Source: a virus. Taken from it: 24,558 bases of DNA. The notes under the pieces are model-generated. The model ran no database searches. It worked only from the letters and a program-made list of their open reading frames with translations, and was not told the origin of the DNA. The first letter of the stretch is position 1. The number at the start of each line of letters is the position of its first letter. Of the stretch, positions 2,794 to 22,722 are shown piece by piece. The translations under genes and the position numbers were made by a program. The DNA is taken from IMG/VR virus record IMGVR_UViG_3300025326_000195, positions 1 through 24,558 of that record. The stretch is one strand, 5' to 3'.

Positions 2794-2807
2794 GGGAGGA
2801 TTAAATT

Positions 2808-2984
2808 ATGCGAATCCAATGCCCGCGATGCAAAAATCGCATAAAAGTTGATGAGGCGATTGCATTGGCGGTTTTAAGGGTGGGAAGGATTGTTTGTTCA
2901 TATTGCGGGGGGTTGATTGAACTCAAGACCGACGAGCAGATAAGGGAGAGAACGGACTGGAAGAAAAAGATGGTAGTGAAATAG
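2808..2984 (+). CDS. Small zinc-ribbon protein (58 aa)
   Basis: A short gene 14 bases after TerL, with a strong ribosome site (GGGGAGG) 8 bases before the ATG. The protein starts MRIQCPRCKNRIKV and has a second pair, CSYCGG, so two CxxC knuckles about 22 residues apart form a typical zinc ribbon. The C-terminal third is charged (RERTDWKKKM). It may be a DNA- or RNA-binding accessory protein of the packaging operon, but no specific function can be assigned. The TAG stop is embedded in the left arm of the following terminator hairpin, so translation to the stop would cover the terminator arm. Confidence 0.75.
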   Translation: MRIQCPRCKNRIKVDEAIALAVLRVGRIVCSYCGGLIELKTDEQIRERTDWKKKMVVK

Positions 2985-3027
2985 CCCGCCCGCGTGGGCG
3001 TAACACACGCGGGCGGGCTATTTTATT
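2982..3027. terminator. Intrinsic terminator between convergent operons
   Basis: A perfect 15-base inverted repeat (2982-2996 TAGCCCGCCCGCGTG, 3006-3020 its complement) with a 9-base loop is followed by TTTTATT on the + strand. On the minus strand the stem is followed by TTTCAC, so it may also end the minus-strand unit. It closes the methyltransferase-terminase operon. Confidence 0.9.
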
Positions 3028-3172
3028 CTCCGTCTCCAATCCGTTCTACTTTCGTCCGCGCCTCAAACCGCCTTGCGGCGACTCGCTTGATGGCGTGGAC
3101 GATAACGGACTTATAAACGCACTCGACGCGCTCGACCTCACTGTCAAAAATGATGTAATCACCAGGCTTCAA
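3023..3172 (-). CDS. Possible small protein with TTG start (49 aa)
   Basis: A reading frame beginning TTG-AAG-CCT-GGT overlaps the TGA stop of the upstream 63-aa gene (TTGA overlap), suggesting translational coupling. The peptide begins LKPGDYIIFDSEVERVECVY and ends in a basic stretch; its composition looks protein-like and it runs right up to the terminator. No ATG is available in this frame. A strong GGAGGAG lies upstream, but it is best placed for an ATG that opens only a 9-residue frame (MTQEQFEAW). Either this is a coupled small gene or the remnant of a gene whose N-terminus lost frame. Function unknown. Confidence 0.4.
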   Translation of the reverse strand: MKPGDYIIFDSEVERVECVYKSVIVHAIKRVAARRFEARTKVERIGDGE

Positions 3173-3360
3173 ACTGTTCTTGGGTCATTGGGTTTCTCCT
3201 CCTCCAAGAACAGTTTGAGCTTTTCGATGCACCGCCTCAACGCACGATATGATTTGTGGTCTAAGTGCGGCTGCTGACTGTACAGAATCTCAAGCCATTC
3301 CAGCGCATCCTGCGCGGCGGCTTCGAGGTTGAGGGGTTGCCCCTCAAAATCCCAAATCAT
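3169..3360 (-). CDS. Small hypothetical protein (63 aa)
   Basis: An acidic, helical small protein (MIWDFEGQPLNLEAAAQDAL..., ending EEEKPNDPRTV). The start is supported by AAGGAG eight bases upstream of the ATG. It is the fourth gene of the minus-strand cassette. No recognisable domain; the amphipathic helices (ALEWLEIL, CIEKLKLFLEEE) would suit a small protein-protein adaptor, but that is only a guess. Confidence 0.65.
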   Translation of the reverse strand: MIWDFEGQPLNLEAAAQDALEWLEILYSQQPHLDHKSYRALRRCIEKLKLFLEEEKPNDPRTV

Positions 3361-3418
3361 TGTGTTTTCTCCTTTCCCCGACTTCTATCCCGCGGCGCTT
3401 ACCTTGCGCGGGTGAAAT

Positions 3419-3826
3419 TTAGAGGGGGCGAGTGAGTGGTATTAGCCGACTGCGGTTGGCATAATGCCTCTCTCCGCCCTCCTCGATTGCGACAGGGGGG
3501 AGAGATGGAATGACAAGGCACACACGATACGAGTATTCGCTTGTATCATTAGAACAAGCGAAAACCCTCTCCACCGCTGGGTCCTTGGCCTCCTCAACCC
3601 AAGAGGCGGGGACCTCGTACACCGAAAAATCCTGCCCCGCGTCGTGGGAGTTGTGGGCACAGGTGTCAGAACGACACCACACCGTGTACTCATCGCGTAC
3701 AAACGTGCCACCGTTCCCAACGATGGCCTCATGGGCCTCGTGGGTTGGGGCATCGAGTTTGATCTCTACCACACCCGTGGCTTCCTGTGCCGCCTGAATC
3801 GCGGCCTGGATTGCGGTTGCTATCAT
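3419..3826 (-). CDS. Hypothetical protein (135 aa)
   Basis: The best start is the ATG at 3826, preceded by GGAGGAG at ideal spacing, giving MIATAIQAAIQAAQEATGVVEI. A longer frame back to 3967 exists, but it has no ribosome site and would translate the repeat DNA upstream. The N-terminus is an Ala/Gln-rich amphipathic helix. The middle has Cys and His residues (WCRSDTCAHNSHD) that could bind a metal, followed by a beta-like part. No family recognised. Third gene of the minus-strand accessory cassette; probably an early or accessory phage function. Confidence 0.65.
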   Translation of the reverse strand: MIATAIQAAIQAAQEATGVVEIKLDAPTHEAHEAIVGNGGTFVRDEYTVWCRSDTCAHNSHDAGQDFSVYEVPASWVEEAKDPAVERVFACSNDTSEYSYRVCLVIPSLPPVAIEEGGERHYANRSRLIPLTRPL

Positions 3827-3924
3827 GTTTCTCCTCCGCACCCCGTTCGGGTCGGTGCCACCCATGAATTTGCCCGATATTGTACCCCTTGGGTCCGGGG
3901 ATTCCATACTGGTTCGATTAGATG

Positions 3925-4004
3925 AGCGAATCTGCGAATCTGCGAATAGGGAATAATTCACTCGCAAATTCGCCCATTCGCAAATTCGTCACTCGCAAAT
4001 TCGC
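3925..4004. repeat. GCGAAT-type palindromic repeat cluster
   Basis: The segment begins with tandem 8-base units (GCGAATCT twice, then GCGAATAG) and continues with three copies of CGCAAATTCG at 3963, 3979 and 3994. The two parts are roughly inverse to each other. It starts immediately next to the TAA of the 280-aa gene and fills the gap to the next gene's leader. Its design (short tandem words, inverted arms) parallels the ATTGCGG family elsewhere in the window, but the sequence is different. Confidence 0.75.
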
Positions 4005-4847
4005 TTATTCGGCGACGAAGCGCATCAGGTCGGCGATGCGCTGGCAATACGGATATCGGCTGGCGATTGCGCCTGCGCCCCCGGTCGCGTAGTTGTTGCG
4101 CGACCAGTCATCCCCATCCCTCCCGTTATTGCGGATGGTCCATAGGGCAACCTCGCCCTCGATTAGATACTCTGTGCCCCCGCCGTAGGGGTCGAAACCG
4201 CGCCCGATGATGATGCGCTCCCCACGGGGTTCGCATTCGCGGGGGGTTTCGTGCGGGGTTTGCGCGAAAAACTGTTCGATTTCGGCTTTGGCGGCCTTGA
4301 TCTCTACCGCTCGCTCTTTGCTACGAGCGAGCTCAGCCTTCCGTTCCTCGCCGTAATAGCCGAGTTCGGTGAGGAGGGTTTCGCTTATCTTGACCTCCTG
4401 CCCATCGGGTCCGCGTAGAATCCAGGGGAATACAAAGTCTCCCTCACTGGAGTCGGGCAGGTTGTAAAGATGTGCCTGCCCGGCGGAGATGTAGCGACTC
4501 TCTTTTTTCCACACGAACCCCTTGGTTCGGAGGAATACGTTTTTTGCGTCTTTTTCGGCTTCGCTCCTCACGTTCTCCGCCTCCCGCTCGACGGCGCAAT
4601 CGACTACGATTGTCCCGTCCAGGTTCTCACCGAGCTTGAGAACTGCCTTCCGCTCCTGCTCGGTCAGGGCGGAAAATTTCTTGTTGGCGACCGCTTCTGA
4701 TACGCCAGCGAGAGCGATTAAGTCTCGCGTAACGTAGGGCTTTGTACTGGGATCAACGGTACAGTAGCCGCCGAAGATGATGACGGGAATTGTTGCGCTC
4801 TTCCCGTCAGTTTTCGTGACCTTGCAAGTGATTCCTCTCTGGTTCAT
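4005..4847 (-). CDS. Hypothetical protein (280 aa)
   Basis: Not recognised. The ATG is preceded by AAGGAG at good spacing. The N-terminal 55 residues look like a compact beta/alpha domain (ITCKVTKTDGKSATIPVIIF). The middle (about 85-115 and 165-200) is highly charged and helical, possibly coiled coil (KAELARSKERAVEIKAAKAE). The C-terminus is Gly/Arg-rich and ends in a helix (CQRIADLMRFVAE). It is the second gene after the minus-strand promoter. No catalytic motif stands out. It could be an accessory protein acting early in infection. Confidence 0.75.
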   Translation of the reverse strand: MNQRGITCKVTKTDGKSATIPVIIFGGYCTVDPSTKPYVTRDLIALAGVSEAVANKKFSALTEQERKAVLKLGENLDGTIVVDCAVEREAENVRSEAEKDAKNVFLRTKGFVWKKESRYISAGQAHLYNLPDSSEGDFVFPWILRGPDGQEVKISETLLTELGYYGEERKAELARSKERAVEIKAAKAEIEQFFAQTPHETPRECEPRGERIIIGRGFDPYGGGTEYLIEGEVALWTIRNNGRDGDDWSRNNYATGGAGAIASRYPYCQRIADLMRFVAE

Positions 4848-4861
4848 TTTAAGTCTCCTTT

Positions 4862-4925
4862 GTGTCCGGGACTTGGGACCCGGTTCCCAGGCTTCTCACC
4901 TTGAAAGTCCTTAACCCCGGCACTG
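4862..4925. repeat. GC-rich imperfect palindrome (GGGACC type)
   Basis: The gap between two minus-strand genes holds CCGGGACTTGGGACCCGG followed by TTCCCAGG, with overlapping inverted words (TGGGA/TCCCA around CCCGGT). It resembles another interspersed repeat type that I recall from metagenomic genomes, where it translates as GSQVPG-like peptides; that link is from memory. Only one copy is seen here. Confidence 0.4.
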
Positions 4926-4945
4926 TCACTGCTGGGTCCCCTCGA

Positions 4946-5221
4946 TTAGGGCCGTGCGAGGATGAACAGTTCGCGCGCGCCCCTTGCGCGATTCTCAATC
5001 CACCATTGAGCATCGCGCCCTTCCACCCATGCCAGCATCCGAGAGATTTCCTGTTCCTGCTGGGGTGTGGGATGGTTTCCCGCATTGGCTGCTTTATCAG
5101 CCGCCCGTGCGGCGTGGGCGTACATCTCATCCATCATCCTCTGGCGGATTTTCGTTGCCCACGCGATTTGTTTCTCAGTTCCGCCGGCCATCGGCGGTGG
5201 GTCAAATATTTGCTCAAACAT
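4946..5221 (-). CDS. Hypothetical protein with GTEKQIAWA motif (91 aa)
   Basis: First gene of the minus-strand unit, about 65 bases downstream of its promoter, with AAGGAG well placed before the ATG. The segment GTEKQIAWATKIRQRMMDEM resembles a short helical motif I have seen near the start of many phage and plasmid proteins of unknown function. The rest is helical and charged, ending WWIENRARGARELFILARP. A different minus-strand frame overlaps it (4849-5130) but has no ribosome site and is a shadow. The role may be regulatory or anti-host, inferred only from its leading place in an isolated early-type unit. Confidence 0.75.
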   Translation of the reverse strand: MFEQIFDPPPMAGGTEKQIAWATKIRQRMMDEMYAHAARAADKAANAGNHPTPQQEQEISRMLAWVEGRDAQWWIENRARGARELFILARP

Positions 5222-5286
5222 TTCAAATCTCCTTTTGCCCTTTCGGGCGATTCGGGGCTTGCGATGCGCTTCCCCTTGTTGCGGAT

Positions 5287-5316
5287 ATTATAACATATCA
5301 CCTTGAGACTTGTCAA
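5287..5316 (-). promoter_or_regulatory. Sigma-70-type promoter for the minus-strand cassette
   Basis: On the minus strand, a perfect TTGACA (5311-5316) is followed by an 18-base spacer and a perfect TATAAT (5287-5292). The -35 box lies inside the 11-base dyad ACTTGACAAGT (5308-5318), a possible operator. The first gene starts about 65 bases downstream. Confidence 0.85.
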
Positions 5317-5364
5317 GTAAAAATACATTGTTTAACAAAATAATTCGTCTTTTTTTGATTCTTC

Positions 5365-5393
5365 TTGACAAGTCCCTGATTTTATTGTATTTT
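5365..5393 (+). promoter_or_regulatory. Sigma-70-type promoter facing the structural operon
   Basis: TTGACA (5365-5370), a 17-base spacer, then TATTTT (5388-5393). The -35 box again lies in an odd dyad, CTTGACAAG (5364-5372), like that of the divergent promoter. Transcripts would start near 5400 and meet the terminator at 5434-5473 before reaching the portal gene. Confidence 0.75.
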
Positions 5394-5433
5394 ATATGGA
5401 CTAAACATCAGAAAAATCGTATAGTGTGAAAAG

Positions 5434-5473
5434 AGGCTCACCTGATCGATCAGCCTTGAGGTGAGCCTTTTTT
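5434..5473. terminator. Intrinsic terminator or attenuator ahead of the portal gene
   Basis: A perfect 10-base stem AGGCTCACCT (5434-5443) / AGGTGAGCCT (5459-5468) has a 15-base loop containing the TGATCGATCA palindrome and is followed by TTTTTT. AAAAG on the left flank can pair with the T run, so it can also act on the minus strand. It lies only about 35 bases after the predicted + strand start point. Confidence 0.85.
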
Positions 5474-5475
5474 AT

Positions 5476-5514
5476 GAATTGCGGAATGATCCGAATTGCG
5501 GATTTCGGAATTGA
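5476..5514. repeat. Heptamer inverted-repeat element R1 (half element)
   Basis: GAATTGCGG, ATCCGAATTGCGG and ATTTCGGAATTGA words lie between the terminator and the portal ATG. Its complement reappears almost whole in R2 (7298-7350), so the portal gene is bracketed by inverted copies. There is no opposite arm beside it. Confidence 0.85.
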
Positions 5515-5523
5515 GTTTTCAAA

Positions 5524-7125
5524 ATGTCTTTCAATCTACAATTCCCCGAGAATTTAGCAATGAATCTAATCAATCCCCTTGTGGGTCCCATCATTGACCG
5601 ATTGTACGCATATCGTACCAAACTGCTACTCTTGAAACAAGCGCAAGAGGCGGAATTATTCTATGCCTTGCAACAGCGGGCAGAGAAGGCAGTGCAACTC
5701 GTCAATCTAAAAGCGAAAGTTGAGCCGCCTAAAATTGACGCCACACAAGAGGAATTGGAACAGAGTTACGGGGCGGGGGTATGGATTTATGCGGCGATCA
5801 ATGTCATTGCCGAAAAGTCTGCATCCATCCCCTGGAGGGTCGTTGACCGAAACAGGGAGGATATACCCTCTCCGTTGCCAATCCGTCCCAATCCCCTGAT
5901 GAGTTGGAATCACCTCCGCCAGTGTCTACAAATCTCATTGGACACGACGGGTAATGGGTTCATTTTCTGGGATAATGAGTCTAATCAGTTTTGGCTATTG
6001 CGAACCTCACGGGTACGGATTGTGCCGGGGCCCGACGGGCGATCAATTCTCGGCTATGCCTATAAAAGTGAGGCAGCGTTCAAGCCAGCGCAGACGGTTC
6101 AAGGACGGCTGTGGACCTTACGACAAGATGAGGCGATGTACATCTCTCGTAAGGAATTTGACGAGCATATTCACAAGACGAAGGCATGGTTGACGAGAGG
6201 AGATGTCAGTGAAAAAATGTCGATCGCGGGCGGAGAAGCGTGGCTACCGATTGAGCCAGAGAATATGATTCACGTCCGCTATGCTCACTCCTACAATAGC
6301 TGGTACGGCATGTCTCCGCTTCAACCCCTCCTGATCTCTTTCATCACCGAGATGCACGCCCGAAAGTGGAATCAACTCTTTTTTGAGAATGGCGCGTTGC
6401 CCCCTGGCGTATTGGTGTTCCCCGAAACCTTGCAACCCGCGCAATATAAAGCGATTTCCGAGCAGTTCAAAGAAAAGCATCAAGGCATTAAAAATGCGTG
6501 GATGCCGTTTATCGCGCAGGGCGGCGCAACCTTTACCCCATTCCCCAATCAGCACAAAGATTTAGACTTTTTGAACCTACTCCGCTGGACCCGCGATGAG
6601 ACCCTTGCCGTGCTAAATGTTCCGCCCGCGATGGTCATGGCGTTTGCTGGAATGGATGGCTCGACCCGCTCTCTGGGAATCGCCGAGCAACGCCAAATCT
6701 TCTGGAAAGATACTATCATTCCAAAAGAAGAAAATAAAGTTGAACAATTTACGATAGACCTTGAATCCCTGCTTGGCGCAGGAAATTCAATCATCATTGA
6801 CACCAGCACGATTGAAGAATTACAGCCGAACTGGACAGAGCTAGCAAAAGCGGGTAAGGATTTGATTATCTCTGGGATGTCAGTGCAAGAGGTGAGAGAG
6901 AAAGTTTACGGATTAACCGATCTCCCAAAAGACCCAATTTATTTGCCGATGGGACTTGCGCCAGTTGACCTGGCGAACCCCGTTTCGGTTCAATCCTATT
7001 ACCTCTACCAGCGACCTATGCAACCGATTGAAGCGGGCTATGCGTCTTACCCATACGCGCAACAGATAGCGAGCCATCGCAAAGAACTTCCGTCAGCCGA
7101 TGAAGCTGAAACGGAGGCAGACTGA
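5524..7125 (+). CDS. Portal protein (HK97-type)
   Basis: The dodecameric ring at the capsid vertex through which DNA enters and leaves. At 533 residues it has full portal size. Typical features: the N-terminal core segment YGAGVWIYAAINVIAEKSASIPWRV, the middle HVRYAHSYNSWYGMSPLQPLL, then FENGALPPGVLVFPE and the C-terminal ETLAVLNVPPAMVMAF with STRSLGIAEQRQIFWKDTI, all characteristic of HK97-family portals. A helical N-terminal extension of about 65 residues is probable coiled coil. The ATG has no visible Shine-Dalgarno; repeat R1 ends only 9 bases upstream. An in-frame ATG at residue 13 has none either. It overlaps the MuF-like gene by 26 bases. Confidence 0.93.
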   Translation: MSFNLQFPENLAMNLINPLVGPIIDRLYAYRTKLLLLKQAQEAELFYALQQRAEKAVQLVNLKAKVEPPKIDATQEELEQSYGAGVWIYAAINVIAEKSASIPWRVVDRNREDIPSPLPIRPNPLMSWNHLRQCLQISLDTTGNGFIFWDNESNQFWLLRTSRVRIVPGPDGRSILGYAYKSEAAFKPAQTVQGRLWTLRQDEAMYISRKEFDEHIHKTKAWLTRGDVSEKMSIAGGEAWLPIEPENMIHVRYAHSYNSWYGMSPLQPLLISFITEMHARKWNQLFFENGALPPGVLVFPETLQPAQYKAISEQFKEKHQGIKNAWMPFIAQGGATFTPFPNQHKDLDFLNLLRWTRDETLAVLNVPPAMVMAFAGMDGSTRSLGIAEQRQIFWKDTIIPKEENKVEQFTIDLESLLGAGNSIIIDTSTIEELQPNWTELAKAGKDLIISGMSVQEVREKVYGLTDLPKDPIYLPMGLAPVDLANPVSVQSYYLYQRPMQPIEAGYASYPYAQQIASHRKELPSADEAETEAD

Positions 7126-7990
7126 TCGGCTTCTTCTTTCAGAAAGACGCCTTCGAACGGCGCTGTGGGAGGTCGTTGATAAGCGGTTTACGAAGGTTGA
7201 GAACCGCTTGTTTGACTGGCTCGTTGGCTTATTCACAACACAAGAGGAACGGTACATTGACGCAATCAAAATCGAGTATGTAAAGACAACGAGCCAGTCA
7301 ATTCCGAAATCATCAATCCGAAATCCGCAATTCGGATCATTCCGCAATTCCCTAACGAAGGAACCCGTCGAAGTCTTAAATGGCATCAACAAACAGCAGG
7401 CGTTGGAATGGCATATCTGGAAAGACGCAGCCTTTCTTGAGTTTACGGAGTTGGTCGATGACGCTGGCAAGTTTGGACTCAAACGGGCAAAGATTCAAGG
7501 AGCATGGGATGTCTTAAATCCACAGGTGTTACTGTTCCTCGACGAAAAGGTTTTCAACTTCGCCAATGGCTTGACCGATTCGATTGGCGATGCGCTGCGT
7601 GAAACCCTGAGAGAAGCTATCCGAAACGGTGAATCCATTGAGCAGATGACCGAGCGGATTCAGAAAGTCTTTCAGGGGACGGTGCGCGGCGATGCCCCTC
7701 GAGCCCGCATAATCGCCAGAACCGAAGCGACGGGGATTGTGAATGGCGGGCAACGGTTGGCATATCAGCAGAATGCCGATATTGTGGAAGGAGTTGAATG
7801 GCTGTCAAGCAAGGATGCCCGCGTCCGACCTTCCCATCAGGCGGCCGACGGACAGCAGGTTCTACTCAATAAGCCATTTACGGTTGGGGGGGCGTTGCTC
7901 AGGTTTCCTGGTGACCCACAAGGGCCGGCGCGGGAAGTGGTGAATTGCCGTTGCACAATCCTAAGTATTTTGAAAAAGGTGTCATCGTGA
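7100..7990 (+). CDS. MuF-like head morphogenesis protein with in-frame repeat insertion
   Basis: The C-terminal half carries the MuF/SPP1 gp7 pattern: ARIIARTEATGIVNGGQRLA (about 200-222), WLSSKDARVRPSHQAADGQ and the closing REVVNCRCTI, a Cys/His set typical of the family. Such minor head proteins sit inside the capsid near the portal and are often encoded just after it, as here (26-base overlap). Residues 67-84 (IPKSSIRNPQFGSFRNS region) come from repeat R2, inserted in frame in a linker between the helical N-terminal part and the conserved domain. A copy of the 28-base repeat (7127-7154) encodes residues about 10-19. Confidence 0.88.
   Translation: MKLKRRQTDRLLLSERRLRTALWEVVDKRFTKVENRLFDWLVGLFTTQEERYIDAIKIEYVKTTSQSIPKSSIRNPQFGSFRNSLTKEPVEVLNGINKQQALEWHIWKDAAFLEFTELVDDAGKFGLKRAKIQGAWDVLNPQVLLFLDEKVFNFANGLTDSIGDALRETLREAIRNGESIEQMTERIQKVFQGTVRGDAPRARIIARTEATGIVNGGQRLAYQQNADIVEGVEWLSSKDARVRPSHQAADGQQVLLNKPFTVGGALLRFPGDPQGPAREVVNCRCTILSILKKVSS
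7127..7154 (-). repeat. 28-base repeat, copy a (inverted)
   Basis: Reads CGGCTTCTTCTTTC...GACGCCTTC on the + strand, the exact complement of the copy at 9257-9284. It begins one base after the portal stop codon and is coding in the MuF-like gene. Confidence 0.9.
7298..7350. repeat. Heptamer inverted-repeat element R2 (inside the MuF-like gene)
   Basis: Composed of CCGAAAT, CCGCAAT and related words, ending ATTCGGATCATTCCGCAATTC. Apart from an extra stretch of about 15 bases it is the complement of R1 (5476-5514). It contains no stop in the MuF frame and adds about 18 residues. Confidence 0.9.
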
Positions 7991-8088
7991 AAGATAACAA
8001 ACCCTCTCATAATCGTCCAATGCCAAAGCCGAAGCCCAAGCCGAAACCTAAGCCTCCCAAGAAAAAGGAGTCACATAATGCAAATTGA
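7987..8088 (+). CDS. Pro/Lys-repeat mini-protein (33 aa, GTG start)
   Basis: A short frame starting at a GTG that overlaps the previous TGA (GTGA overlap) encodes a peptide with an uninterrupted alternating Lys-Pro stretch (PMPKPKPKPKPKPPKKK). Its 3' end overlaps the start of the protease gene, and its last codons contain that gene's ribosome site (AAAAAGGAG). It may be a real coupled mini-gene or only a translated leader that feeds ribosomes to the protease start. Low complexity prevents any functional call. Confidence 0.4.
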   Translation: MKDNKPSHNRPMPKPKPKPKPKPPKKKESHNAN

Positions 8089-9727
8089 CGAAAAGACACG
8101 TAATCTCATCCGCTCCATGATTCTCGGTGGGATTCAGATTGAAGCGGCGGAACGGAATACTCTCATTGAGAAAGCCATTGAGCAGGGGTTCTACCGACGC
8201 AAGACCAGCCTGGCAATCAAATCCGTTGACCTCGACACCCATCGAATCGACTTCATTGTGACAACGGACACGGTAGACCGAGACGATGAGCGAGTGATGC
8301 CCAGATCTTTTGAAAAGGATTTCAAGTTATATCAGGAGAACCCTGTCGTTTTGTGGGCTCATAAGCACGATGTCCCAGCAGTGGCTCGGATGGTTGATTT
8401 CAAGTTTACCGACAAGGATTTCTCAGTCACCGATCAGTTCGCCGTTGACACCACGCCACTGGCGACTGAACTCTGGAAACTCTACTCCGCAGACCCCCCT
8501 TATATGCGAGCCGTGAGTGTAGGCTTTATCCCTGTCGATTGGACATTCGACGAAAAGGATAAACTGCCAGGTCAACAGGGACGGACATTTCTGGAGAATG
8601 AGATGATTGAGCACTCGCTTGTCAATGTCGGCTCTAACCGCTTTGCGCTTTCCAAAGCCTACCAAACCGAGAAAGACCCGACACTGAAAGCGGTGCTTGA
8701 GGCATTGATTGAGCAACCTTCAGCCCACCCATGCGGGCATCGGGTGCTATATGATGGGGATGGGAAGATTGTTGATTGCCCGCTCTGTGAGGGGGAATTA
8801 GGAAGAATTGCGGACGTCTCGATTGCGGATTTCGGATTGCGGATTTCGGAATTGAAGAATTTAAGAGACTCTTATCCTCTTCAATCTGCAATCCGCAATC
8901 CGCAATCTGCAATTCCCCAAGGGCTGATAAGCCAAGAGCGGATTGAAGTGACTGGCGAGAAGCCCTATCCTAATGAACACGCCTGCCGACTGCGCTCCCC
9001 TTCCGATTTTGAGAAGGATTCTTTTGTTCGCACCAAACGGCAACACGAAGGAAAAGGCTATTCAGTGATTATGGGTAAGTTAAAGGGTAAAACAACCTTG
9101 ACTCAACAGGCTTTCCGCTATCCGAAATCAGACTGGACAGCGAAAGCGGCGAAATCTCATTGTACCGATCACAAGGGGATTCTATTTGAGCCCGCTTCAA
9201 AGGATATGGAGGTGCTCACTCAAGCGGAGATAAAAGCCATAAATGAGAGCGACTCTGAAGGCGTCTTTCTGAAAGAAGAAGCCGAAAAGATGTACGGGCG
9301 GTTCACCATTCCCGGCACCTATGAGCGAACCCATCGGGACATCCATAAAGCTGTGGAAGATTACAAAAAAGAATTGATTGGACGTGAATGGCATTATATC
9401 GTCATCATCGGCACAACGGATACATGGGTTATCTGTTACGACGAAGATGCGGACGTATTCTATCAGCTTGACTGGATGCGTGATGCGAATGGCATGGTAG
9501 TATTCTCAAATCCCCGTCAAATCGAAATGACAATTGGGGATGAGGCGGTGCAACTGTCCATTGATGACGTAATTCCTAAAGCGGCTGTCATCATAGAAGA
9601 TGAACTGATTGCGTCAGTCAGAAATATCATGCGTGAAATCAATGCCATTGAGCCGATCGTAAGCCCACAAACGGAAGGAGACTTAGAGCAAAGGCTCTCA
9701 ACAATCATTCAGACTTTAACACATTAG
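8078..9727 (+). CDS. Prohead protease with C-terminal extension and in-frame repeat insertion
   Basis: The capsid maturation protease (HK97 gp4/U35 type). The first 200 residues hold the protease domain: VDRDDERVMPRSF, the catalytic His in VVLWAHKHDVP (H95) and Ser in MRAVSVGFIP (S147), then MIEHSLVNVGSN. A zinc-ribbon-like element follows (CGH 219-221, CPLC 234-237). Residues about 239-280 are repeat R3, inserted in frame. Beyond it lies a domain with PYPNEHACRLRSPSDF and GKLKGKTTLTQQAFRYPKSDW, which I recognise from other protease or head-gene fusions but cannot name. The C-terminus (about 375-549) is unassigned and includes residues encoded by the 28-base repeat. The start has AAAAAGGAG six bases upstream. 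Confidence 0.88.
   Translation: MQIDEKTRNLIRSMILGGIQIEAAERNTLIEKAIEQGFYRRKTSLAIKSVDLDTHRIDFIVTTDTVDRDDERVMPRSFEKDFKLYQENPVVLWAHKHDVPAVARMVDFKFTDKDFSVTDQFAVDTTPLATELWKLYSADPPYMRAVSVGFIPVDWTFDEKDKLPGQQGRTFLENEMIEHSLVNVGSNRFALSKAYQTEKDPTLKAVLEALIEQPSAHPCGHRVLYDGDGKIVDCPLCEGELGRIADVSIADFGLRISELKNLRDSYPLQSAIRNPQSAIPQGLISQERIEVTGEKPYPNEHACRLRSPSDFEKDSFVRTKRQHEGKGYSVIMGKLKGKTTLTQQAFRYPKSDWTAKAAKSHCTDHKGILFEPASKDMEVLTQAEIKAINESDSEGVFLKEEAEKMYGRFTIPGTYERTHRDIHKAVEDYKKELIGREWHYIVIIGTTDTWVICYDEDADVFYQLDWMRDANGMVVFSNPRQIEMTIGDEAVQLSIDDVIPKAAVIIEDELIASVRNIMREINAIEPIVSPQTEGDLEQRLSTIIQTLTH
8792..8918. repeat. Heptamer inverted-repeat element R3 (inside the protease gene)
   Basis: Left arm GGGGAATT plus ATTGCGG/ATTTCGG units to about 8855, a centre TTGAAGAA...CTCTTCAA, and right arm CCGCAAT/CTGCAAT units ending AATTCCCC. 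The arms are complementary, and the whole element is open in the protease frame (IADFGLRI... and SAIRNPQSAI). Confidence 0.92.
9257..9284 (+). repeat. 28-base repeat, copy b
   Basis: GAAGGCGTCTTTC...GAAGAAGCCG, exactly complementary to copy a and one base different from copy c. It encodes EGVFLKEEA in the C-terminal part of the protease. Confidence 0.9.
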
Positions 9728-9736
9728 GGAGGGGAA

Positions 9737-9820
9737 GGGGAATTGCGGAATTATGAAGAATTGCGGAATTCGGAATTGAAGATGTCTCTTCCAATCCGCA
9801 ATCCGCAATCCGAAATTCCT
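9737..9820. repeat. Heptamer inverted-repeat element R4 (before the capsid gene)
   Basis: GGGGAATTGCGG ... GGAATTGAAGATGTCTCTTCC ... CCGCAATCCGCAATCCGAAATTCC. The centre GAAGATGTCTCTTCC is the exact complement of that of R9, so the same element type occurs in both orientations. It is open upstream of the capsid start and can be mistaken for a capsid N-terminus. Confidence 0.92.
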
Positions 9821-9850
9821 TATGATGGTGGTCATCATAGGAGAGAAAAC

Positions 9851-11281
9851 ATGCCTCCAGCAGCAACAGTAATAACCGCGCCTGCCTATGTCACAGTTGA
9901 GCAATTCAAATCCGTTGAGCAAACTATACTTGAGCTTGCCAACGCGATGAAAATGCTTAATGGTACACTAAAGACGGTAGGCGAGCGACAGGAAGCGGCA
10001 GAAAAACAACTCGCCGATGCAACCCGAATTAACGAGGAAAAGAAATCACTGGCACGGAATATGCCGATCTTTGGCGTTGAGTCCGTACCGGGCGACTTCT
10101 TATTCAAAGAAATCACGGCGTCAACCCCGGCACCGATTGCGAAGGCGATCATAGAAAAGGTTATCGGCTCTCCGACTCAGGATGAGCGGATAAAGGAATT
10201 TCAGGAGAAGTCGGATACCATCAAGATTCTGTGCGGCTATCTCGGAAAGCAACCGCACGAATTAAAGATGTATAAAGAATATGAGGCCTGGTGCGAAAAG
10301 ACAGGGCTTGGGAAGGTTTTGTCTGTTATAGACTCCCCGGCGAACTTCATCGCTAACGGATGGTCAGCAGAAATAGCGACCTACTACCAGCAAGAATTGA
10401 TGATTGCCACCCTGTTTGGTGCACCTTTTGAGATGCCGAACGATCCCTTCCGATACGACTTTCTCGGAACAGGATTCACAAGCTATTTGCGCGGCGAACC
10501 GACAACCGATCCCGCCTCTAAATATCGTTCATCTCAACCCACCCAGGATGTCATTACGCTAACGACCAAAGAATTGGCCGGGCGGATGCTATTAACTCGG
10601 AAAATGACAGAGGACGCGCTTGCTGCGTATGTCCCTAAACTCCGAACCGAGTTGATTCCACGCGGTATGGCAGAGGGTATGGAAAATGGGCTTCTCAACG
10701 GAGATGATAGTGCGACTCATTTTGATACCGTTGTCACGGATGCCGACGACGTCCGCAAGGCATGGCCAGGGATTCGCAAAATCGCAGATCGGGAATCCGC
10801 AACGTATGATGTGCAAACTGGCAGTACGGCTTATGCCTATAACGACTTCGGGGAAGTCCTCTTAAAGGCCGGCAAATTTGGTGTAAAAGTCAATGAAGGC
10901 GCGTGGATTTCCAGCAACGTTGCCTACATCAAGTCAACGGTTTTCGATGAAGTCAAAACGGCAGAAAAAATCAGTTTGCCAACCAACATCAACGGCGTTG
11001 TGAATGTGTGGTTGGGCCGTCCTGTCATTGTTTCGCCACAGTATTCTGCGACACTTGCCGCTGCAACGGGCAAAGACGCGGGAACGGGTACTACCACCGG
11101 CTTCGCTTATGTCAATCATCGACAATTCATGATGGGATTCCGACGCGAAGACATCATCGAACAAGATCGAGACATCACGACGGGGATGGATACGATTGTT
11201 ATTTCAACCCGTAAAGCCTTCCAGCAGATGCTCCCCACGGGGAACACGACTTGCGCAACAGGCTTTAACGTGCCAACGTAG
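9851..11281 (+). CDS. Major capsid protein (HK97 fold)
   Basis: The main shell protein. The start is the ATG at 9851, with AGGAGAG before it; 36 in-frame codons upstream are repeat R4 and should not be included. The 476-residue protein begins with a short extension and a coiled coil (about 12-65: VEQFKSVEQTILELANAM, ERQEAAEKQLADATRINEE), the scaffolding delta domain normally removed by the protease. The fold proper follows, with GWSAEIATYYQQELMIATLFGAPFEMP, the E-loop-like TGFTSYLRGEPTTDP, the spine helix segment RMLLTRKMTEDALAAYVPKL and the late NGVVNVWLGRPVIVS...RQFMMGFRRE typical of these capsids. Confidence 0.93.
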   Translation: MPPAATVITAPAYVTVEQFKSVEQTILELANAMKMLNGTLKTVGERQEAAEKQLADATRINEEKKSLARNMPIFGVESVPGDFLFKEITASTPAPIAKAIIEKVIGSPTQDERIKEFQEKSDTIKILCGYLGKQPHELKMYKEYEAWCEKTGLGKVLSVIDSPANFIANGWSAEIATYYQQELMIATLFGAPFEMPNDPFRYDFLGTGFTSYLRGEPTTDPASKYRSSQPTQDVITLTTKELAGRMLLTRKMTEDALAAYVPKLRTELIPRGMAEGMENGLLNGDDSATHFDTVVTDADDVRKAWPGIRKIADRESATYDVQTGSTAYAYNDFGEVLLKAGKFGVKVNEGAWISSNVAYIKSTVFDEVKTAEKISLPTNINGVVNVWLGRPVIVSPQYSATLAAATGKDAGTGTTTGFAYVNHRQFMMGFRREDIIEQDRDITTGMDTIVISTRKAFQQMLPTGNTTCATGFNVPT

Positions 11282-11286
11282 GACGC

Positions 11287-11392
11287 TTGGGGAATTTCGG
11301 ATTAAAAAACATTTCGGATTTCGGAATTGAAGAACGTTTCTTCCAATCCGCAATCTGCAATCATCAATCCGCAATTCTTCATAATTCCCCAA
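11287..11392. repeat. Heptamer inverted-repeat element R5
   Basis: Bounded by TTGGGGAATT and AATTCCCCAA (perfect 10-base complement). Left arm ATTTCGG units, centre GAAGAACGTTTCTTCC, right arm CCGCAAT/CTGCAAT units. Lies between the capsid gene and the next gene's ribosome site. Confidence 0.92.
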
Positions 11393-11419
11393 CACTCATT
11401 AAAAAAGGAGGACACTTCA

Positions 11420-11875
11420 ATGCCTACTATTGTTAAATCCGCAAGCGGACTCGAATTTCGGCTCTCTGTCCCGGTTCCCGTGAGCGGCGGGACGGCCGTT
11501 CCTGCGACTGGTACGAACCGATATGTAATTACAAGATTAGATCGACGTATTCGATTTCGTGAGTTCGGCGTTGTTGCACAACAGACTGTTACCTCTGGGC
11601 ACCCAGCTACGAATTACATGGTAGCAAAGCTCTATAATTTCACGAAATCCACCCAGATTGCGCAGGGGACGGTTGTTGGGAAAGGGGCAAGCCCTGGGAC
11701 CATCAGCCTTAACCGAGCGGTGTATAGCCAGCTCGCCACCCTCAATAAATTCAAGGCGGGCTATGCTGTGGGCTCTGCGCAGGATGTAATTTCGGTTCAT
11801 TTTACCGCAACCGTCACGCTCAATCGGGGCTTGACCCGCCCGATAGTCGTTTTGCTTGGCGATTACATTGACTAA
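11420..11875 (+). CDS. Hypothetical head-associated protein (151 aa)
   Basis: The ATG at 11420 follows a strong AAGGAGGA; a longer frame from 11327 would translate repeat R5 and is rejected. The protein is beta-rich (RYVITRLDRRIRFREFGVV, VISVHFTATVTLNRGLTRPIVVLLGDYID) with no Cys. It follows the capsid gene directly, where phages often encode a decoration or capsid-stabilising protein; that role is inferred from position only. The next gene's Shine-Dalgarno (AAAGGAG) overlaps its stop codon, but element R6 separates the two. Confidence 0.75.
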   Translation: MPTIVKSASGLEFRLSVPVPVSGGTAVPATGTNRYVITRLDRRIRFREFGVVAQQTVTSGHPATNYMVAKLYNFTKSTQIAQGTVVGKGASPGTISLNRAVYSQLATLNKFKAGYAVGSAQDVISVHFTATVTLNRGLTRPIVVLLGDYID

Positions 11876-11885
11876 AGGAGGAAAA

Positions 11886-12019
11886 GAATTGCAGATTGCA
11901 GATTGCAGATTGCGGAACCTTGAAGAATTGCGGAATGCGGATTGCGGAATTTAATCCGAAATCCGAAATCCGAAATTCCCCAAGGTCCGAAATCCGCATT
12001 CCGCAATTCGGATCAATTC
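11886..12019. repeat. Heptamer inverted-repeat element R6, between a Shine-Dalgarno and its start codon
   Basis: Left arm with three ATTGCAG units, GCGGAACCTTGAAGAATTGCGG and AATGCGG; right arm CCGAAAT x3, CCCCAAGGTCC, CCGCATT, CCGCAATTCGG. The arms pair along most of the length, including AACCTTG with CAAGGT. AAAGGAG (11874-11880) lies just before it and the next ATG (12027) just after. Confidence 0.92.
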
Positions 12020-12026
12020 TTCTATC

Positions 12027-12755
12027 ATGGGTGCGACATTACAAGCATCATTCAATCAGGCAAAAAGAGCCGAGCCTATATGCGGGCAAGGTGTTTATCT
12101 GTCCGATTTCGTCGATGATCTCCGCAAGAAGTTCGGTGCCGGTGGAACCCTCCACCGGCATGATGGGATTTCGGGGGATGGGGGGACGGTACTATATTCT
12201 ACGCTTGCCACTCCTCCGACGGGTATGACGGGGGGAACCACCCATAACAAGACGGCTCATCGAAAGATAGCGGGGCGGGTAAGGCAGCTTCCGCTCTCCT
12301 TATGGAAGATGGCAAGCGGGACCGTACTCGGTGCCGTTTCCAGTGTGACCCTCCCCTACTTTTCAACAGCATCGGGTGTTCATAAAATCACCTGGCCTGC
12401 GACGGCAACTATCAAGCTATTACAAGAATTGGTTATTCCAGACAACTATAGCACTACCGTCAAAACCCAGAATCTTGCCATCTTTGCGCGTGCGAAAGCG
12501 GCATCGACGACAGTAACGTTCAAGGGTTCATTTCGTCACGTTCAAACCGCAGTGGCAATCCCAGCGGCGAAGGCACTATCAACCAAGATTCTGACTGCGG
12601 GCGCAACTGCTCCCCGTAAGTTCACGAATGTCATGACCTACGCGACCTTCGCCAAGGTAGACGTTGTAGCCATCCAGATTTATCCAACTGGCAATAGTGC
12701 AGGGGCGGACACCGAGCTATTCGCCTCCATGTTTGAGTACACGGCGGAGGAGTAG
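12027..12755 (+). CDS. Hypothetical structural protein (242 aa)
   Basis: A Thr/Ala-rich, beta-rich protein (TASGVHKITWPATATIKLL, STTVTFKGSFRHVQTAV) ending DTELFASMFEYTAEE; probably a virion component. Another frame overlaps its start (11896-12228), but that one merely reads through the repeat. No Shine-Dalgarno lies within 20 bases of the ATG; the nearest good one (AAAGGAG) is on the other side of R6. Its last codons contain the ribosome site of the next gene (GGAGGAG). No family recognised. Confidence 0.75.
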   Translation: MGATLQASFNQAKRAEPICGQGVYLSDFVDDLRKKFGAGGTLHRHDGISGDGGTVLYSTLATPPTGMTGGTTHNKTAHRKIAGRVRQLPLSLWKMASGTVLGAVSSVTLPYFSTASGVHKITWPATATIKLLQELVIPDNYSTTVKTQNLAIFARAKAASTTVTFKGSFRHVQTAVAIPAAKALSTKILTAGATAPRKFTNVMTYATFAKVDVVAIQIYPTGNSAGADTELFASMFEYTAEE

Positions 12756-12758
12756 ATT

Positions 12759-13139
12759 ATGTCAGCAACGCTTTCATTGGCTACTGCCTTATTATCCTCT
12801 CAAGAGAACCTGAATATTCTCAGGCTCAATGCAACCCAATTCATCATCCCAACCCTGATCAATACAACCCTGGTCACGGCGAACAAACAGTACACGGCGA
12901 CTATCCCTGCGAAAACTCGCCGTTTCTTCTTCCAATGCCGTCCGAAATCAACGGGTTTGCAATACAATATCCGCTATGCTTTTCAGGCGAATAAGGTGGC
13001 AACCCCAACCAACCCTTACACAACCCTCATTTCTGGACAGATTTTCGATGTGGACGGTTTCAAACTAAAGTCGAATGCAACCGTTTACTTCGCGACGCCC
13101 GGCACCAATGTGATCGTAGAAATTGCGGCATGGATTTAG
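12759..13139 (+). CDS. Hypothetical structural protein (126 aa)
   Basis: Small beta-rich protein starting 3 bases after the previous stop, with GGAGGAG upstream. The centre TATIPAKTRRFFFQCRPKST resembles the short beta-sandwich or decoration-like proteins common between head and tail genes of siphoviruses (I recall 'YTATIPAGT+RF' patterns). It ends ...VIVEIAAWI. One Cys. It is followed by a 30-base gap consisting almost wholly of the 28-base repeat, then by the first LamG gene. Exact role unknown. Confidence 0.72.
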   Translation: MSATLSLATALLSSQENLNILRLNATQFIIPTLINTTLVTANKQYTATIPAKTRRFFFQCRPKSTGLQYNIRYAFQANKVATPTNPYTTLISGQIFDVDGFKLKSNATVYFATPGTNVIVEIAAWI

Positions 13140-13140
13140 C

Positions 13141-13168
13141 GAAGGCGTCTTGCTGAAAGAAGAAGCCG
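13141..13168 (+). repeat. 28-base repeat, copy c (intergenic)
   Basis: GAAGGCGTCTTGC...GAAGAAGCCG, 27 of 28 bases identical to the copy at 9257. It begins two bases after the previous stop and ends one base before the next ATG, so it is essentially the whole intergenic gap. Confidence 0.9.
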
Positions 13169-13169
13169 T

Positions 13170-14648
13170 ATGCACTTTAACCCATTCGGAACCAAACATC
13201 AGAAAAATAAGGGGGATTGGTTCAATCTGACCCATATCCCAGATTGCAAGTTATGGCTAGATGCTTCGCCAAGTCCCGCAAATGTGAGTAATGTCAAAAG
13301 CGGTAACGCGGCGCAGTTCATAGCGGCAAACAGCGAGTATTTGTCCGTTGCGGATAACGCCGCGCTCTCAATGGGGGATGTGGATTTTACGCTTGCGGGG
13401 TGGGTGTATTTTGATACATTACCCGCAATCGGCAGTCATTTTGGACTTATAGGTAAATGGGAAAGCGTAGTTAGTAAAAGAGAGTATTTGATTTTTGTTA
13501 ATAATTCTGCCGGGGTGACGACATTTAGATTTCAGGTTCGCAATACCCTAGATACAGCAACTTCCGAGGTCGCCGCGACAACTTTTGGCGCGGTCTCTGT
13601 AGGGGCTTGGTATTTTGTTACTGCGTATCATAATACTGCAGCCGACCTTATTGGTATAAGTGTTAATGATGGCGCATTTAATACAGCAGCAAATACTGGC
13701 GGAGTTCAAGACGGAACAGCAGACTTTGAAATCGGAAGGTATAATATCGCCAATTATTTCAACGGGAGAGCGCACGATGTCATTATCGCTAAACAAATCT
13801 ACACCGCCGCCGAAATAACTTTTCTTTATAATGACAACAATGGCAGGCGATTTGAGGACTTGGGACTTGCGGGAACAGACGGTGCAAACATCAATGCCGC
13901 AAGCGGAGGCGTTGCCTACTTCAAACTTGGCGAGGAAAGTGGAACAAGAGCGGATAGTTGGGGGGCAAATACCCTCACCGACAACAACACGGTAACCCAG
14001 AATGATGGTGTGTCCTTAAAAGACGCAGTGAATAACGATTCTGTTCGGCAATGGACGGATTTGAGCGGGAATGGATTTAATGCGACTCAAACTGGAAATG
14101 TAACGACTAAATCGAAGTTTATCACAGGGGTTCAAAACGGAAAACCGTCTATTCGCACGGATGGTGTCAATGACTATCTCGCCTTTGCGACCCCATTCTC
14201 TTACTCCGATTTTACCTATTTTTGCGCTTTCATTAGAAGAACGGATACAGGTGCAGTTGAAATTCTGTTTGATAATCGGGATTCGGCGGCGGACGGTTTT
14301 TCTTTTCAGATTGACGCGAATGATAAGTTATCAGTGATTTACAATGCAATCACGGTAACGGGAGCTACGAGCATAGCAACCGCGACCGCCTATGTTCTCG
14401 GGGTAGTGGCTGACGGAACGAACATCACGATTTATCTAAATGGGGTTCAGGACGGACAAGCGGCTCAAAGCGGTTCAATCAGCATAACAACGAATGCGGT
14501 GATAGGCGCGAGAAACTTTACATCGCAGACCAGTTTTGTTGCGGCGGATTACCTGGAACAATCATTGCATAATCGCGGGATGAATGCGGGGGAGCTGGCA
14601 AGGGCTACACGATATTTAGGGAGAAGATGGGGGATAGCCGTTTCATAA
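13170..14648 (+). CDS. LamG-domain protein, probable virion surface or host-binding protein
   Basis: A 492-residue beta-rich protein with two laminin-G/concanavalin-like domains. Residues about 46-225 (AAQFIAANSEYLSVADNAAL ... VDFTLAGWVYF ... GAWYFVTAYHN ... YTAAEITFLYN) form one jelly-roll; GGVAYFKLGEESGTRADSWG (246-265) is a tail usually linked to such units. The second domain runs about 285-492 (VRQWTDLSGNGFNATQ, VNDYLAFATPF, ARATRYLGRRWGIAVS). The words DCKLWLDAS at 26-33 normally come just before QWxDLSGNG, so domain 1 seems nested inside domain 2. Such domains bind glycans; attachment or decoration is likely. No clear Shine-Dalgarno; the 28-base repeat precedes the ATG. Confidence 0.85.
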   Translation: MHFNPFGTKHQKNKGDWFNLTHIPDCKLWLDASPSPANVSNVKSGNAAQFIAANSEYLSVADNAALSMGDVDFTLAGWVYFDTLPAIGSHFGLIGKWESVVSKREYLIFVNNSAGVTTFRFQVRNTLDTATSEVAATTFGAVSVGAWYFVTAYHNTAADLIGISVNDGAFNTAANTGGVQDGTADFEIGRYNIANYFNGRAHDVIIAKQIYTAAEITFLYNDNNGRRFEDLGLAGTDGANINAASGGVAYFKLGEESGTRADSWGANTLTDNNTVTQNDGVSLKDAVNNDSVRQWTDLSGNGFNATQTGNVTTKSKFITGVQNGKPSIRTDGVNDYLAFATPFSYSDFTYFCAFIRRTDTGAVEILFDNRDSAADGFSFQIDANDKLSVIYNAITVTGATSIATATAYVLGVVADGTNITIYLNGVQDGQAAQSGSISITTNAVIGARNFTSQTSFVAADYLEQSLHNRGMNAGELARATRYLGRRWGIAVS

Positions 14649-14652
14649 AATT

Positions 14653-15111
14653 ATGCCACTTAAAAACACACAACTACAAGACTCCTGCGACGCTCTGCTT
14701 AATGACATCTATCAGCAAGTATTGACTTTGCAGGAGGGGTATAAAACTGAAGATGTAACAGAAAATTTAGGGACCGACGATGCTAGAAAGCCCATCACAA
14801 GAACCTACAAGCGCGACAAGTATTTCCAGCTTCTTGAGACGCACTCGGTAATACCAGCGGACGGAATAACAGTTGCAGAAGATGTGGGCGATAAAACGCC
14901 AACAGATCAGAGCGAAACTTATACCGACTTTGGGCTTGTCCTGCCCACTAAAATGCCTATGTCCATCAGCGTGTCGCCTTATCAAAGCCCGATTGGCTGT
15001 GGGTTTGAATTGCGGGCACGGGTTATTGATGCGGAAGTTGAATACCAAAAAGTATTGAACTATGGAAATGAGACTGAGCGAGAACAAAATTGGACGGCTA
15101 TTCAGGGGTAA
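14653..15111 (+). CDS. Hypothetical protein (152 aa)
   Basis: Starts 4 bases after the LamG gene, without a clear ribosome site, so probably coupled to it. The N-terminal part is helical and acidic (LQDSCDALLNDIYQQVLTLQEGY), the rest beta-rich (ETYTDFGLVLPTKMPMSISV, CGFELRARVIDAEVEYQKV). Not recognised. Its 3' end overlaps the kinase start by 50 bases in another frame. It may be a partner of the LamG protein, but only context says so. Confidence 0.7.
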   Translation: MPLKNTQLQDSCDALLNDIYQQVLTLQEGYKTEDVTENLGTDDARKPITRTYKRDKYFQLLETHSVIPADGITVAEDVGDKTPTDQSETYTDFGLVLPTKMPMSISVSPYQSPIGCGFELRARVIDAEVEYQKVLNYGNETEREQNWTAIQG

Positions 15112-16147
15112 GCGAATCTTGATTGTTGGCGACATCATGCTCGATCAGTACCTTGAGGGAAAGATTGAGCGGATGTCACCAGAGGCACCCGTCCCCATAC
15201 TCGATGTGCACCAGATTCGCAATCAATTGGGTGGTGCGGCGAACGTCGCGGCGAATGTTGCGTCATTGGGAGCGCAGGCTTTTTTGATGGGGCATGTCGG
15301 CGAGGATATGCCGGGGCAAATCGTTAGGAATCTATTGACATTGCATCGGGTAGCCTTTATTCCCTTGTCCATCCCAGATCGCCAAACAACCCTCAAGACC
15401 CGCCTTGTCTCAGGGCATCAGCAGATGATTCGCTTCGATCAAGAGACAAAGACACAAATCCATGAAATTGAAAAAGCGATGGAATTGGCATTGCGGCGGT
15501 TGACCTTCAATGGCATTATCCTCTCGGATTATGACAAAGGGGTTTTGACACCCGATTCAATTGCATTCTTCCGAGAGATTGAGAAGAATTGCGGAATGCG
15601 GAATGCGGATTGCGGAATTATGAAGAATTGCGGATTGCAGATTGCGGATTGCGGAATTCAATCCGAAATCCGAAATCCGCAATTCCCCAAGGTCCGAAAT
15701 CATCAATCCGAAATCCGAAATTCTTCAAGCGATATTCCGATTGTCGTTGACCCCAAGCAACGAAACTTCTGGGAATATCAAGGTTTCACCGCAATTACTC
15801 CGAACCTATCAGAAGCATTGAAGGCAACAGAACAGACCGATCATCAATTGGCTTGCGAACAAATCCAGCGAATGCTCAATCCGAAACAGCTTCTCTTAAA
15901 GCGAGGGGAGCAGGGAATGGTATTGATGGAAGGGGAGCAGACCTACGAAATCCCTGCACACCGAGTCGAAGTCGCTGATGTAACTGGCGCAGGAGATACT
16001 GTGATTGCGACATACACGTTAGGGTTGTCATCAGGAATGACAGCATTAGAAGCAGCAAAACTAGCAAATCTAGCGGCATCCATTAGCGTACAACATCATG
16101 GTTGTTATCATATCAAGCCAGAGGACTTAAATGCTCATATTCTTTGA
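15062..16147 (+). CDS. rfaE1: PfkB-family heptose 7-phosphate kinase (RfaE1/HldA-like) with in-frame repeat insertion
   Basis: Resembles D-glycero-beta-D-manno-heptose-7-phosphate kinase, which phosphorylates heptose-7-phosphate at C1 on the way to ADP-heptose. Signs: LIVGDIMLDQYLEGKIERMSPEAPVPILDV (20-49), LGGAANVAANVASLGA (56-71), VVDPKQRNFWEYQGFTAITPN and the PfkB signature DVTGAGDT with catalytic Asp312. There is no adenylyltransferase domain, so it corresponds to the monofunctional kinase. Residues 175-223 are repeat R7; without them the length is about 312, normal for the family. The insertion lies between a helix and the IPIVVDPK strand, probably a surface loop. It overlaps both neighbours in a phage structural operon, so it is cargo rather than a stray host gene. 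The start could also be the ATG at 15068. Confidence 0.88.
   Translation: MEMRLSENKIGRLFRGKRILIVGDIMLDQYLEGKIERMSPEAPVPILDVHQIRNQLGGAANVAANVASLGAQAFLMGHVGEDMPGQIVRNLLTLHRVAFIPLSIPDRQTTLKTRLVSGHQQMIRFDQETKTQIHEIEKAMELALRRLTFNGIILSDYDKGVLTPDSIAFFREIEKNCGMRNADCGIMKNCGLQIADCGIQSEIRNPQFPKVRNHQSEIRNSSSDIPIVVDPKQRNFWEYQGFTAITPNLSEALKATEQTDHQLACEQIQRMLNPKQLLLKRGEQGMVLMEGEQTYEIPAHRVEVADVTGAGDTVIATYTLGLSSGMTALEAAKLANLAASISVQHHGCYHIKPEDLNAHIL
15584..15729. repeat. Heptamer inverted-repeat element R7 (inside the kinase gene)
   Basis: One of the longest copies. Left arm AAGAATTGCGG, AATGCGG x2, ATTGCGG, a second AAGAATTGCGG block and ATTGCAG units; centre GGAATTCAATCC; right arm CCGAAAT/CCGCAAT units, CCCCAAGGTCC, and an outer AATCCGAAATTCTTCAAG. 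Open in the kinase frame (MRNADCG ... SEIRNPQF). Confidence 0.92.
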
Positions 16148-20463: not shown

Positions 20464-20734
20464 AGAGGCATCAGGGCTTACAGAGGTATTAGTTCGGCGA
20501 ATTCAAACCGATAGCGGCATAACTGAACTCAGGAATGATGCACGGTTTCAGCTAAATAAGCGAATCACACAGGCATGGGATATGCTCTTAAAAGAGATGG
20601 AAGAATTGCGGATTTCGGATTGCGGAATTAAAATCCGAAATCATCAATCCGAAATCCGCAATTCCCTTATGCTCTTAAAAGAGATGGAAAAAAGGAGGGT
20701 TGAAAATGGAGCTTCACGGAATCCTGATTCGTAG
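20456..20734 (+). CDS. Small fibre-associated protein interrupted in frame by repeat R8
   Basis: 92 residues, ATG overlapping the end of the fibre gene. The native part is MAKEASGLTEVLVRRIQTDS...RITQAWDMLLKEMEK...; residues about 50-78 come from R8 plus a duplicated MLLKEME. Without the insertion (87 bases) the protein would be 63 residues, so the element kept the frame. The beginning, ASGLTEVLVRRIQ, resembles the ES.GL.ES fibre repeat. Its 3' end overlaps the next gene. Function unknown; perhaps a fibre tip or chaperone peptide. Confidence 0.65.
   Translation: MAKEASGLTEVLVRRIQTDSGITELRNDARFQLNKRITQAWDMLLKEMEELRISDCGIKIRNHQSEIRNSLMLLKEMEKRRVENGASRNPDS
20581..20689. mobile_element. Repeat R8 with 22-base target-site duplication
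   Basis: The core 20603-20667 (GAATTGCGGATTTCGGATT...GAAATCCGCAATTCCCT) is an inverted heptamer repeat. It is flanked by exact 22-base direct repeats at 20581-20602 and 20668-20689 (TATGCTCTTA...GATGGAA). Removing the core and one flank restores a continuous reading frame (QAWDMLLKEMEKRR). Confidence 0.9.
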
Positions 20735-21152: not shown

Positions 21153-21347
21153 CTGGGAAGAGATTGCGGACCTTGGGGAATTAGGAAGAATTGCGGATTT
21201 GGGATTGCGGAATGCGGATTGGAAGAGACATCTTCAATTCCGAAATCCGAAATTCGGATCATTCCGAAATTCTTCGCGTCCGAAATCCTCAATTCTTCGC
21301 GTCCGAAATCCGCAATCTGCAATTCTTCAAAGTTCGGAGGGTGTAAC
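21138..21347. mobile_element. Repeat R9 with 16-base target-site duplication
   Basis: The insert 21154-21331 contains ATTGCGG units, CCTTGGGGAATT, the centre GGAAGAGACATCTTC and CCGAAAT/CCGCAAT units ending ATTCTTCAAA. It is flanked by the exact direct repeat GTTCGGAGGGTGTAAC at 21138-21153 and 21332-21347. That segment holds the upstream stop codon and the downstream Shine-Dalgarno, so both genes remain intact. Confidence 0.9.
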
Positions 21348-22455: not shown

Positions 22456-22528
22456 GAAGAATTGCGGATTTCGGATTGATGATTTCGGATTTTAATTCCG
22501 CAATCCGCAATCTGCATTCCGCAATTCC
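22456..22528. repeat. Heptamer inverted-repeat element R10
   Basis: Starts right after the tail-terminator stop. Its first 54 bases (22456-22509) are identical to 22620-22673 in R11, including the central part, so the two are recent local duplicates. Confidence 0.92.
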
Positions 22529-22619
22529 TCATGAAGTGTAGCAGGCAGGGGGACGGGGATCGACCACCACTCCGAAGCCTTTTACCGTACATTCCCTCAC
22601 GGTGCCTGCTACTGAATGG
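22529..22619. other. Segment trapped between R10 and R11, with a 10-base inverted repeat
   Basis: This 91-base stretch contains GTAGCAGGCA (22538-22547) and its exact complement (22603-22612), enclosing a G/C-rich loop. One + strand frame reads TTTPKPFTVHSLTVPATEW without a start codon, which looks like a fragment of a virion protein. A 10-base stem at this spacing can occur by chance a few times in a window of this size, so the structure alone proves nothing. Confidence 0.45.
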
Positions 22620-22696: not shown

Positions 22697-22722
22697 GAGG
22701 AGGGGAAAAGGAGTAATACATC

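Follow-up and report, generated by a model that had tools for sequence, protein, structure and literature searches.

The window, by which we mean the whole stretch of DNA analysed here (24,558 bases, a complete IMG/VR record), is a 24.6-kb fragment of a tailed phage and carries late genes (Table 1). The portal and MuF proteins are encoded by separate, overlapping ORFs (5524-7990). Beyond the genes listed in Table 1, family matches were obtained for a methyltransferase, both terminase subunits, a PfkB kinase, a head-tail adaptor, and tail completion, tail terminator and major tail proteins. Two Laminin_G_3 proteins are encoded in the window, and repeats with a 162-nt period lie at 19606-20135 within a Laminin_G_3 protein. 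None of the window ORFs that were scanned could be recognised as an integrase, a recombinase or a transposase.

The head-gene region also holds a 28-base sequence, GAAGGCGTCTTTCTGAAAGAAGAAGCCG, whose three copies (a, b and c) lie within 6 kb, at boundaries of genes or protein domains, and in two orientations. The coordinates and strands given for it in the first-pass annotation proved right for all three copies. Their identity had been judged too high for chance, and dinucleotide shuffles of the window bore this out by yielding 0 matches at up to three mismatches. A fourth copy, even a degenerate one, is absent from the window, where the next best 28-mer has 10 mismatches. In pairwise comparisons, copies a and b share 29 nt, copies a and c share 29 nt with one mismatch, and copies b and c share 28 nt with one mismatch. 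The 20 nt flanking the copies on each side are identical at 1-7 of 20 positions, compared with a mean of 5 expected by chance. That the copies arose by copying is firm. Because the three have the same edges and flanks at chance level, we infer that a defined unit was copied, and copied as one piece.

Table 1. Features of the window, with positions counted from its first base
Feature	Coordinates	Strand	Description
28-mer copy a	7127..7154	-	exact; portal/MuF junction, N-terminus of MuF ORF, coding antisense to the unit
28-mer copy b	9257..9284	+	exact; coding, residues 394-403 (EGVFLKEEAE) of head-protease ORF
28-mer copy c	13141..13168	+	single mismatch (position 12, T to G); in gene gap
Portal protein	5524..7125	+	Pfam Phage_portal, E 1.1e-46; stop one base before copy a
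MuF-like head protein	7100..7990	+	contains copy a; Pfam Phage_Mu_F, E 2.3e-16
Head maturation protease-like ORF	8078..9727	+	contains copy b; PHROG 617, E 6.6e-15; PHROG 80, E 1.5e-10
ORF upstream of copy c	12759..13139	+	no family match at default threshold
Laminin_G_3 protein downstream of copy c	13170..14648	+	Pfam Laminin_G_3, E 1.3e-17
Heptamer array	5476-5525		
Heptamer array	7298-7350		
Heptamer array	8817-8927		
Heptamer array	9741-9830		
Heptamer array	11286-11400		
Heptamer array	11890-12020		
Heptamer array	15571-15735		
Heptamer array	20588-20676		
Heptamer array	21173-21337		
Heptamer array	22452-22534		
Heptamer array	22616-22698		
Heptamer array	23518-23624		

Copies a and b had been described as coding in two genes and two orientations, and this description stands. 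Copy c, which had been thought to fill a whole gap between stop and start, is indeed intergenic: a gap of 30 nt separates the stop codon ending at 13139 from the ATG at 13170, and copy c takes up 28 of these. As also noticed at first pass, copies a and c both begin (in plus-strand coordinates) just after a stop codon, with one base between in each case. Placement of the copies is non-random in that two of the three start 1-3 nt after the stop of a gene (P ~1.5e-5 under random placement). Tolerance of insertions at gene boundaries can explain this pattern, with no function needed. An ATG lies 5 nt past copy b (9290) and 1 nt past copy c.

The protease ORF has 68 distant relatives, which lie on viral contigs, and none in GenBank phages. 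The ORF has no Pfam match, but its EKPYPNEH domain is common to many of these contigs. Relatives of the MuF and portal proteins in GenBank phages are distant ones only. Both portal and MuF domains were found in 28 of the 68 relatives of the protease ORF; they form one ORF in 24 of the 28 and are separate, as in the window, in the other 4. Comparison with the distant relatives places copy a within the variable portal-MuF linker. With copy a removed, the portal frame reads EAETEAD, then two stop codons, then TALWEVVDK, which is the MuF frame. A frame match of this kind is expected one time in three by chance and is suggestive only.

For copy b we used a structure model of the protease ORF, and given its mean pLDDT of 64.8 we relied on local confidence alone. 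A confident domain at about residues 300-375 precedes the region of copy b, residues 388-414 (which hold the peptide encoded by copy b) fall below 50, and a less certain C-terminal part follows. Copy b is predicted from this model to lie within a disordered linker of the head protease. If copy b is taken out, the reading frame closes after 423 codons and a gene of its own would be needed for the C-terminal part; a clean insertion at this site would therefore not have been neutral, unless it was accompanied by a gene fusion or the loss of bases. No relatives of the C-terminal part (from ATG 9290) were found in our searches. It is possible that ATG 9290 acts as an internal start that gives a scaffold-like protein.

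Searches of IMG/VR with 25 and with 18 specified bases of the 28-mer retrieved a single contig besides the window, L004. This contig is 100% identical to positions 1711-7287 and 7298-15620 of the window, the three copies and their flanks included, and on the strength of this identity it is the same phage. Its sample may be that of the window or one linked to it, and hence it is perhaps not independent. L004 was also the only source in IMG/VR of close relatives of the portal protein and of the ORF at 9851-11281, and a search run without a positive control found no relatives of the latter in 396 genomes of the phylum of G002. Searches of GenBank phages and plasmids with the 28-mer gave matches at chance level only (best E ~1). 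The first-pass annotation had proposed looking for empty sites, and IMG/VR yielded none for any copy; L004, the sole other record of the phage, is filled. No repeated bases of the kind left by target-site duplication flank any of the copies. We saw no sign that the three copies are parts of longer coding sequence conserved in other phages, an explanation raised at first pass: the encoded peptides differ, and no convincing alignment with the distant relatives was obtained there. Dispersed repeats this long are uncommon in such phages, as an exact dispersed repeat of at least 24 nt was present in 0 of the 68 distantly related viral contigs (607 kb), where the longest was 23 bases. In another viral contig, L032, a dispersed repeat of 20-23 bases, GGGGATGATATAGTCTGAAC, lies at 9396, 10246 and 11076 and is perhaps intron- or homing-related.

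The window also contains about twelve arrays of a heptamer (GATTGCG/GATTTCG), several of which have inverted arms around a centre. These arrays occupy gene gaps and also lie in frame within the MuF, protease and PfkB genes; one sits in a low-confidence stretch of the protease model. A 27-base string of the heptamer type also occurs in one Verrucomicrobiaceae and one Pyrinomonadaceae MAG, and a literature search for the heptamer sequence returned unrelated papers only. The 28-mer had been proposed to be a second, smaller interspersed repeat unrelated to these arrays, and our comparison supports this view. Both kinds of repeat are scattered through gene gaps and also occur in frame within the same genes, but they are unrelated in sequence, and the arrays vary in length, have inverted arms and are also found in bacterial genomes.

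Over 13.9 kb, the window and L004 are identical but for one heptamer array in the MuF gene (window 7287-7301; L004 5578-5636). L004 keeps a fuller array with a left arm at this position, and the window instead has a short segment belonging to a 15-nt inverted copy of 7212-7226. Both alleles are in frame. Both arms are present in many of the other arrays, and for this reason the derived allele is probably that of the window. The difference resembles the outcome of a template switch or of an assembly effect, and short templated copying seems to occur in this phage lineage, or in the assemblies.

The small dyad noted at first pass within the 28-mer, CTTTCTGAAAG, is broken in copy c, as was recognised then. 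A longer imperfect dyad, GGCKTCTT-N8-AAGANGCC, is intact in all three copies, and the lone mismatch falls in its spacer. The arms are identical across copies and pair at 7 of 8 positions, which sets the unit apart from perfect dyads of the Cluster O type (see below). The dyad is modest, its score being equalled by 2.6% of window 28-mers. Folded as bare RNA, the 28-mer forms a hairpin of about -7 to -8 kcal/mol, with z from -1.5 to -2.1; with the flanks included, its fold has no clear advantage over shuffles (z from -1.1 to +0.4).

The reading that best accounts for these data, and to which we give about an even chance, is that the 28-mer is a short dispersed repeat that was copied within the phage lineage and kept where it is harmless. 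We favour it because the copies are identical at 28/28 and 27/28 positions with flanks at chance level, because the distantly related contigs hold no exact dispersed repeat of this length, and because short sequences move elsewhere in the same genome, as in the heptamer array that differs from L004. A sharply bounded, weakly hairpin-forming unit of 28 bases would have been copied at least twice in the lineage, in both orientations, and the copying would be recent, with 0-1 bases differing between copies. Copies would persist at sites where 28 added bases harm little, namely the portal/MuF junction, a disordered linker and a gene gap. The likeliest route of copying would be template switching at the dyad or, alternatively, recombination with an element located in the host or in the unseen part of the phage genome. 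Counting against this reading, no target-site duplication, empty site or mobilising enzyme was recognised, and a clean insertion of 28 bases shifts the frame at copy b.

The main alternative, which we consider possible but on balance unlikely, is that the 28-mer is a selected site for a dimeric phage or host protein (a regulator or a DNA-organising protein) that recognises the longer dyad and is tolerated in genes. A protein-binding or recombination site had been suggested at first pass. A binding site would fit the intact dyad in every copy and a sole mismatch confined to the spacer. It also has a putative precedent in the Cluster O mycobacteriophages (the Corndog group), in which 34 perfect 17-bp palindromes (7+3+7, with a variable spacer) are spread genome-wide and are common to five phages (PMC4351075). 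Those repeats are located between genes, close to 5' ends and within genes, in both orientations; they are absent from the mycobacterial genomes and other phages that the authors checked, save for two copies in one strain, and the authors proposed that they are bound by a dimer (PMC4351075). They are the nearest described case, being like the 28-mer short, phage-specific, located in both gaps and genes, and present in both orientations, but the 28-mer has three copies, an imperfect dyad and a nearly invariant spacer, and belongs to one phage. Against a binding site, the spacer and the asymmetric ends are as conserved as the arms, the dyad is modest in score, and none of only three copies has a promoter-like site. 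The conservation of all 28 bases, spacer included, favours recent copying over selected convergence. A role as promoter or terminator was rejected, as neither promoter-like nor terminator-like matches were found at the copies.

The copies might also be chance templated insertions, in which one 28-base stretch was copied by template-switch repair without there being a defined unit, and we regard this as improbable. The 15-nt inverted copy that separates the window from L004 speaks for such events. However, two independent events would have had to take the same stretch, with edges within one base, and they would have to span 2-6 kb in differing orientations.

A start-associated element, or an RNA element, that affects how the ORFs starting past copies b and c are translated has still less to recommend it. 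The ATGs close to these copies and the hairpin of the bare unit (about -8 kcal/mol) point in this direction, but copy a has the inverted orientation, copy b lies within an ORF, and the fold with flanks is no better than that of shuffles. Shine-Dalgarno pairing is weak (-1.8 kcal/mol, compared with about -6 to -11.6 at clear sites in the phage), and a ribosome-binding role was rejected on this ground. With E values of up to 1 allowed, Rfam matched none of the copies, and a described RNA family was likewise rejected. In Cluster K mycobacteriophages, start-associated sequences (SAS) lie mostly in one orientation and at translation starts, and ESAS hold imperfect inverted repeats (PMC3203893). The 28-mer resembles these in being a short repeat with two copies close upstream of an ATG, but with one copy inverted, one within a gene and weak Shine-Dalgarno pairing it differs from SAS.

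It is very unlikely that the phage acquired a repeat of host type, for example a mimic of a CRISPR repeat or an interspersed repeat of the host. A length of 28 bases is a usual one for CRISPR repeats, and the phage's own heptamer arrays are also present in bacterial genomes. However, the window lacks a CRISPR repeat-spacer array, a search of 84,980 GTDB bacterial and archaeal species genomes with 22 specified bases gave no exact match, and no copy at up to three mismatches was present in 119 genomes from the family to which G002 belongs (Pyrinomonadaceae, by its record title); we rejected a host interspersed repeat on the last two results. The host count suggested by the first-pass annotation stands at 0 among the species genomes, which may not include the true host. 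A 28-bp dif/Xer-type layout (11+6+11), considered on grounds of length, was discarded as the arms are unpaired in that register (by eye) and no recombinase was recognised in the window. Short repeats tolerated within protein-coding genes are familiar from the small in-gene palindromic elements and MITEs of bacteria, for example the Rickettsia palindromic elements, all of which are several times longer than the 28-mer. For the 28-mer we saw no target duplication or terminal repeats, and no related transposase among the window ORFs scanned.

The 28-mer is a real short dispersed phage repeat and at present a well-supported curiosity. A bolder proposal, of which we are doubtful, is that the 28-mer is a defined mini-element of 28 bases, mobile in phage genomes, which rewires gene layout by virtue of a length of 1 modulo 3. 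If this were true, portal and MuF would share a frame once copy a was removed, as they do in the fused ORF of 24 of 28 relatives, although two stop codons would remain; the loss of copy b would separate the protease from its C-terminal part. Should the 28-mer be a binding site, it would point to an unrecognised regulator or DNA-organising protein in an uncultured phage. Should it be mobile, its size would be very small for a unit of that kind, and it would illustrate how splits, fusions and new linkers arise in phage genes.
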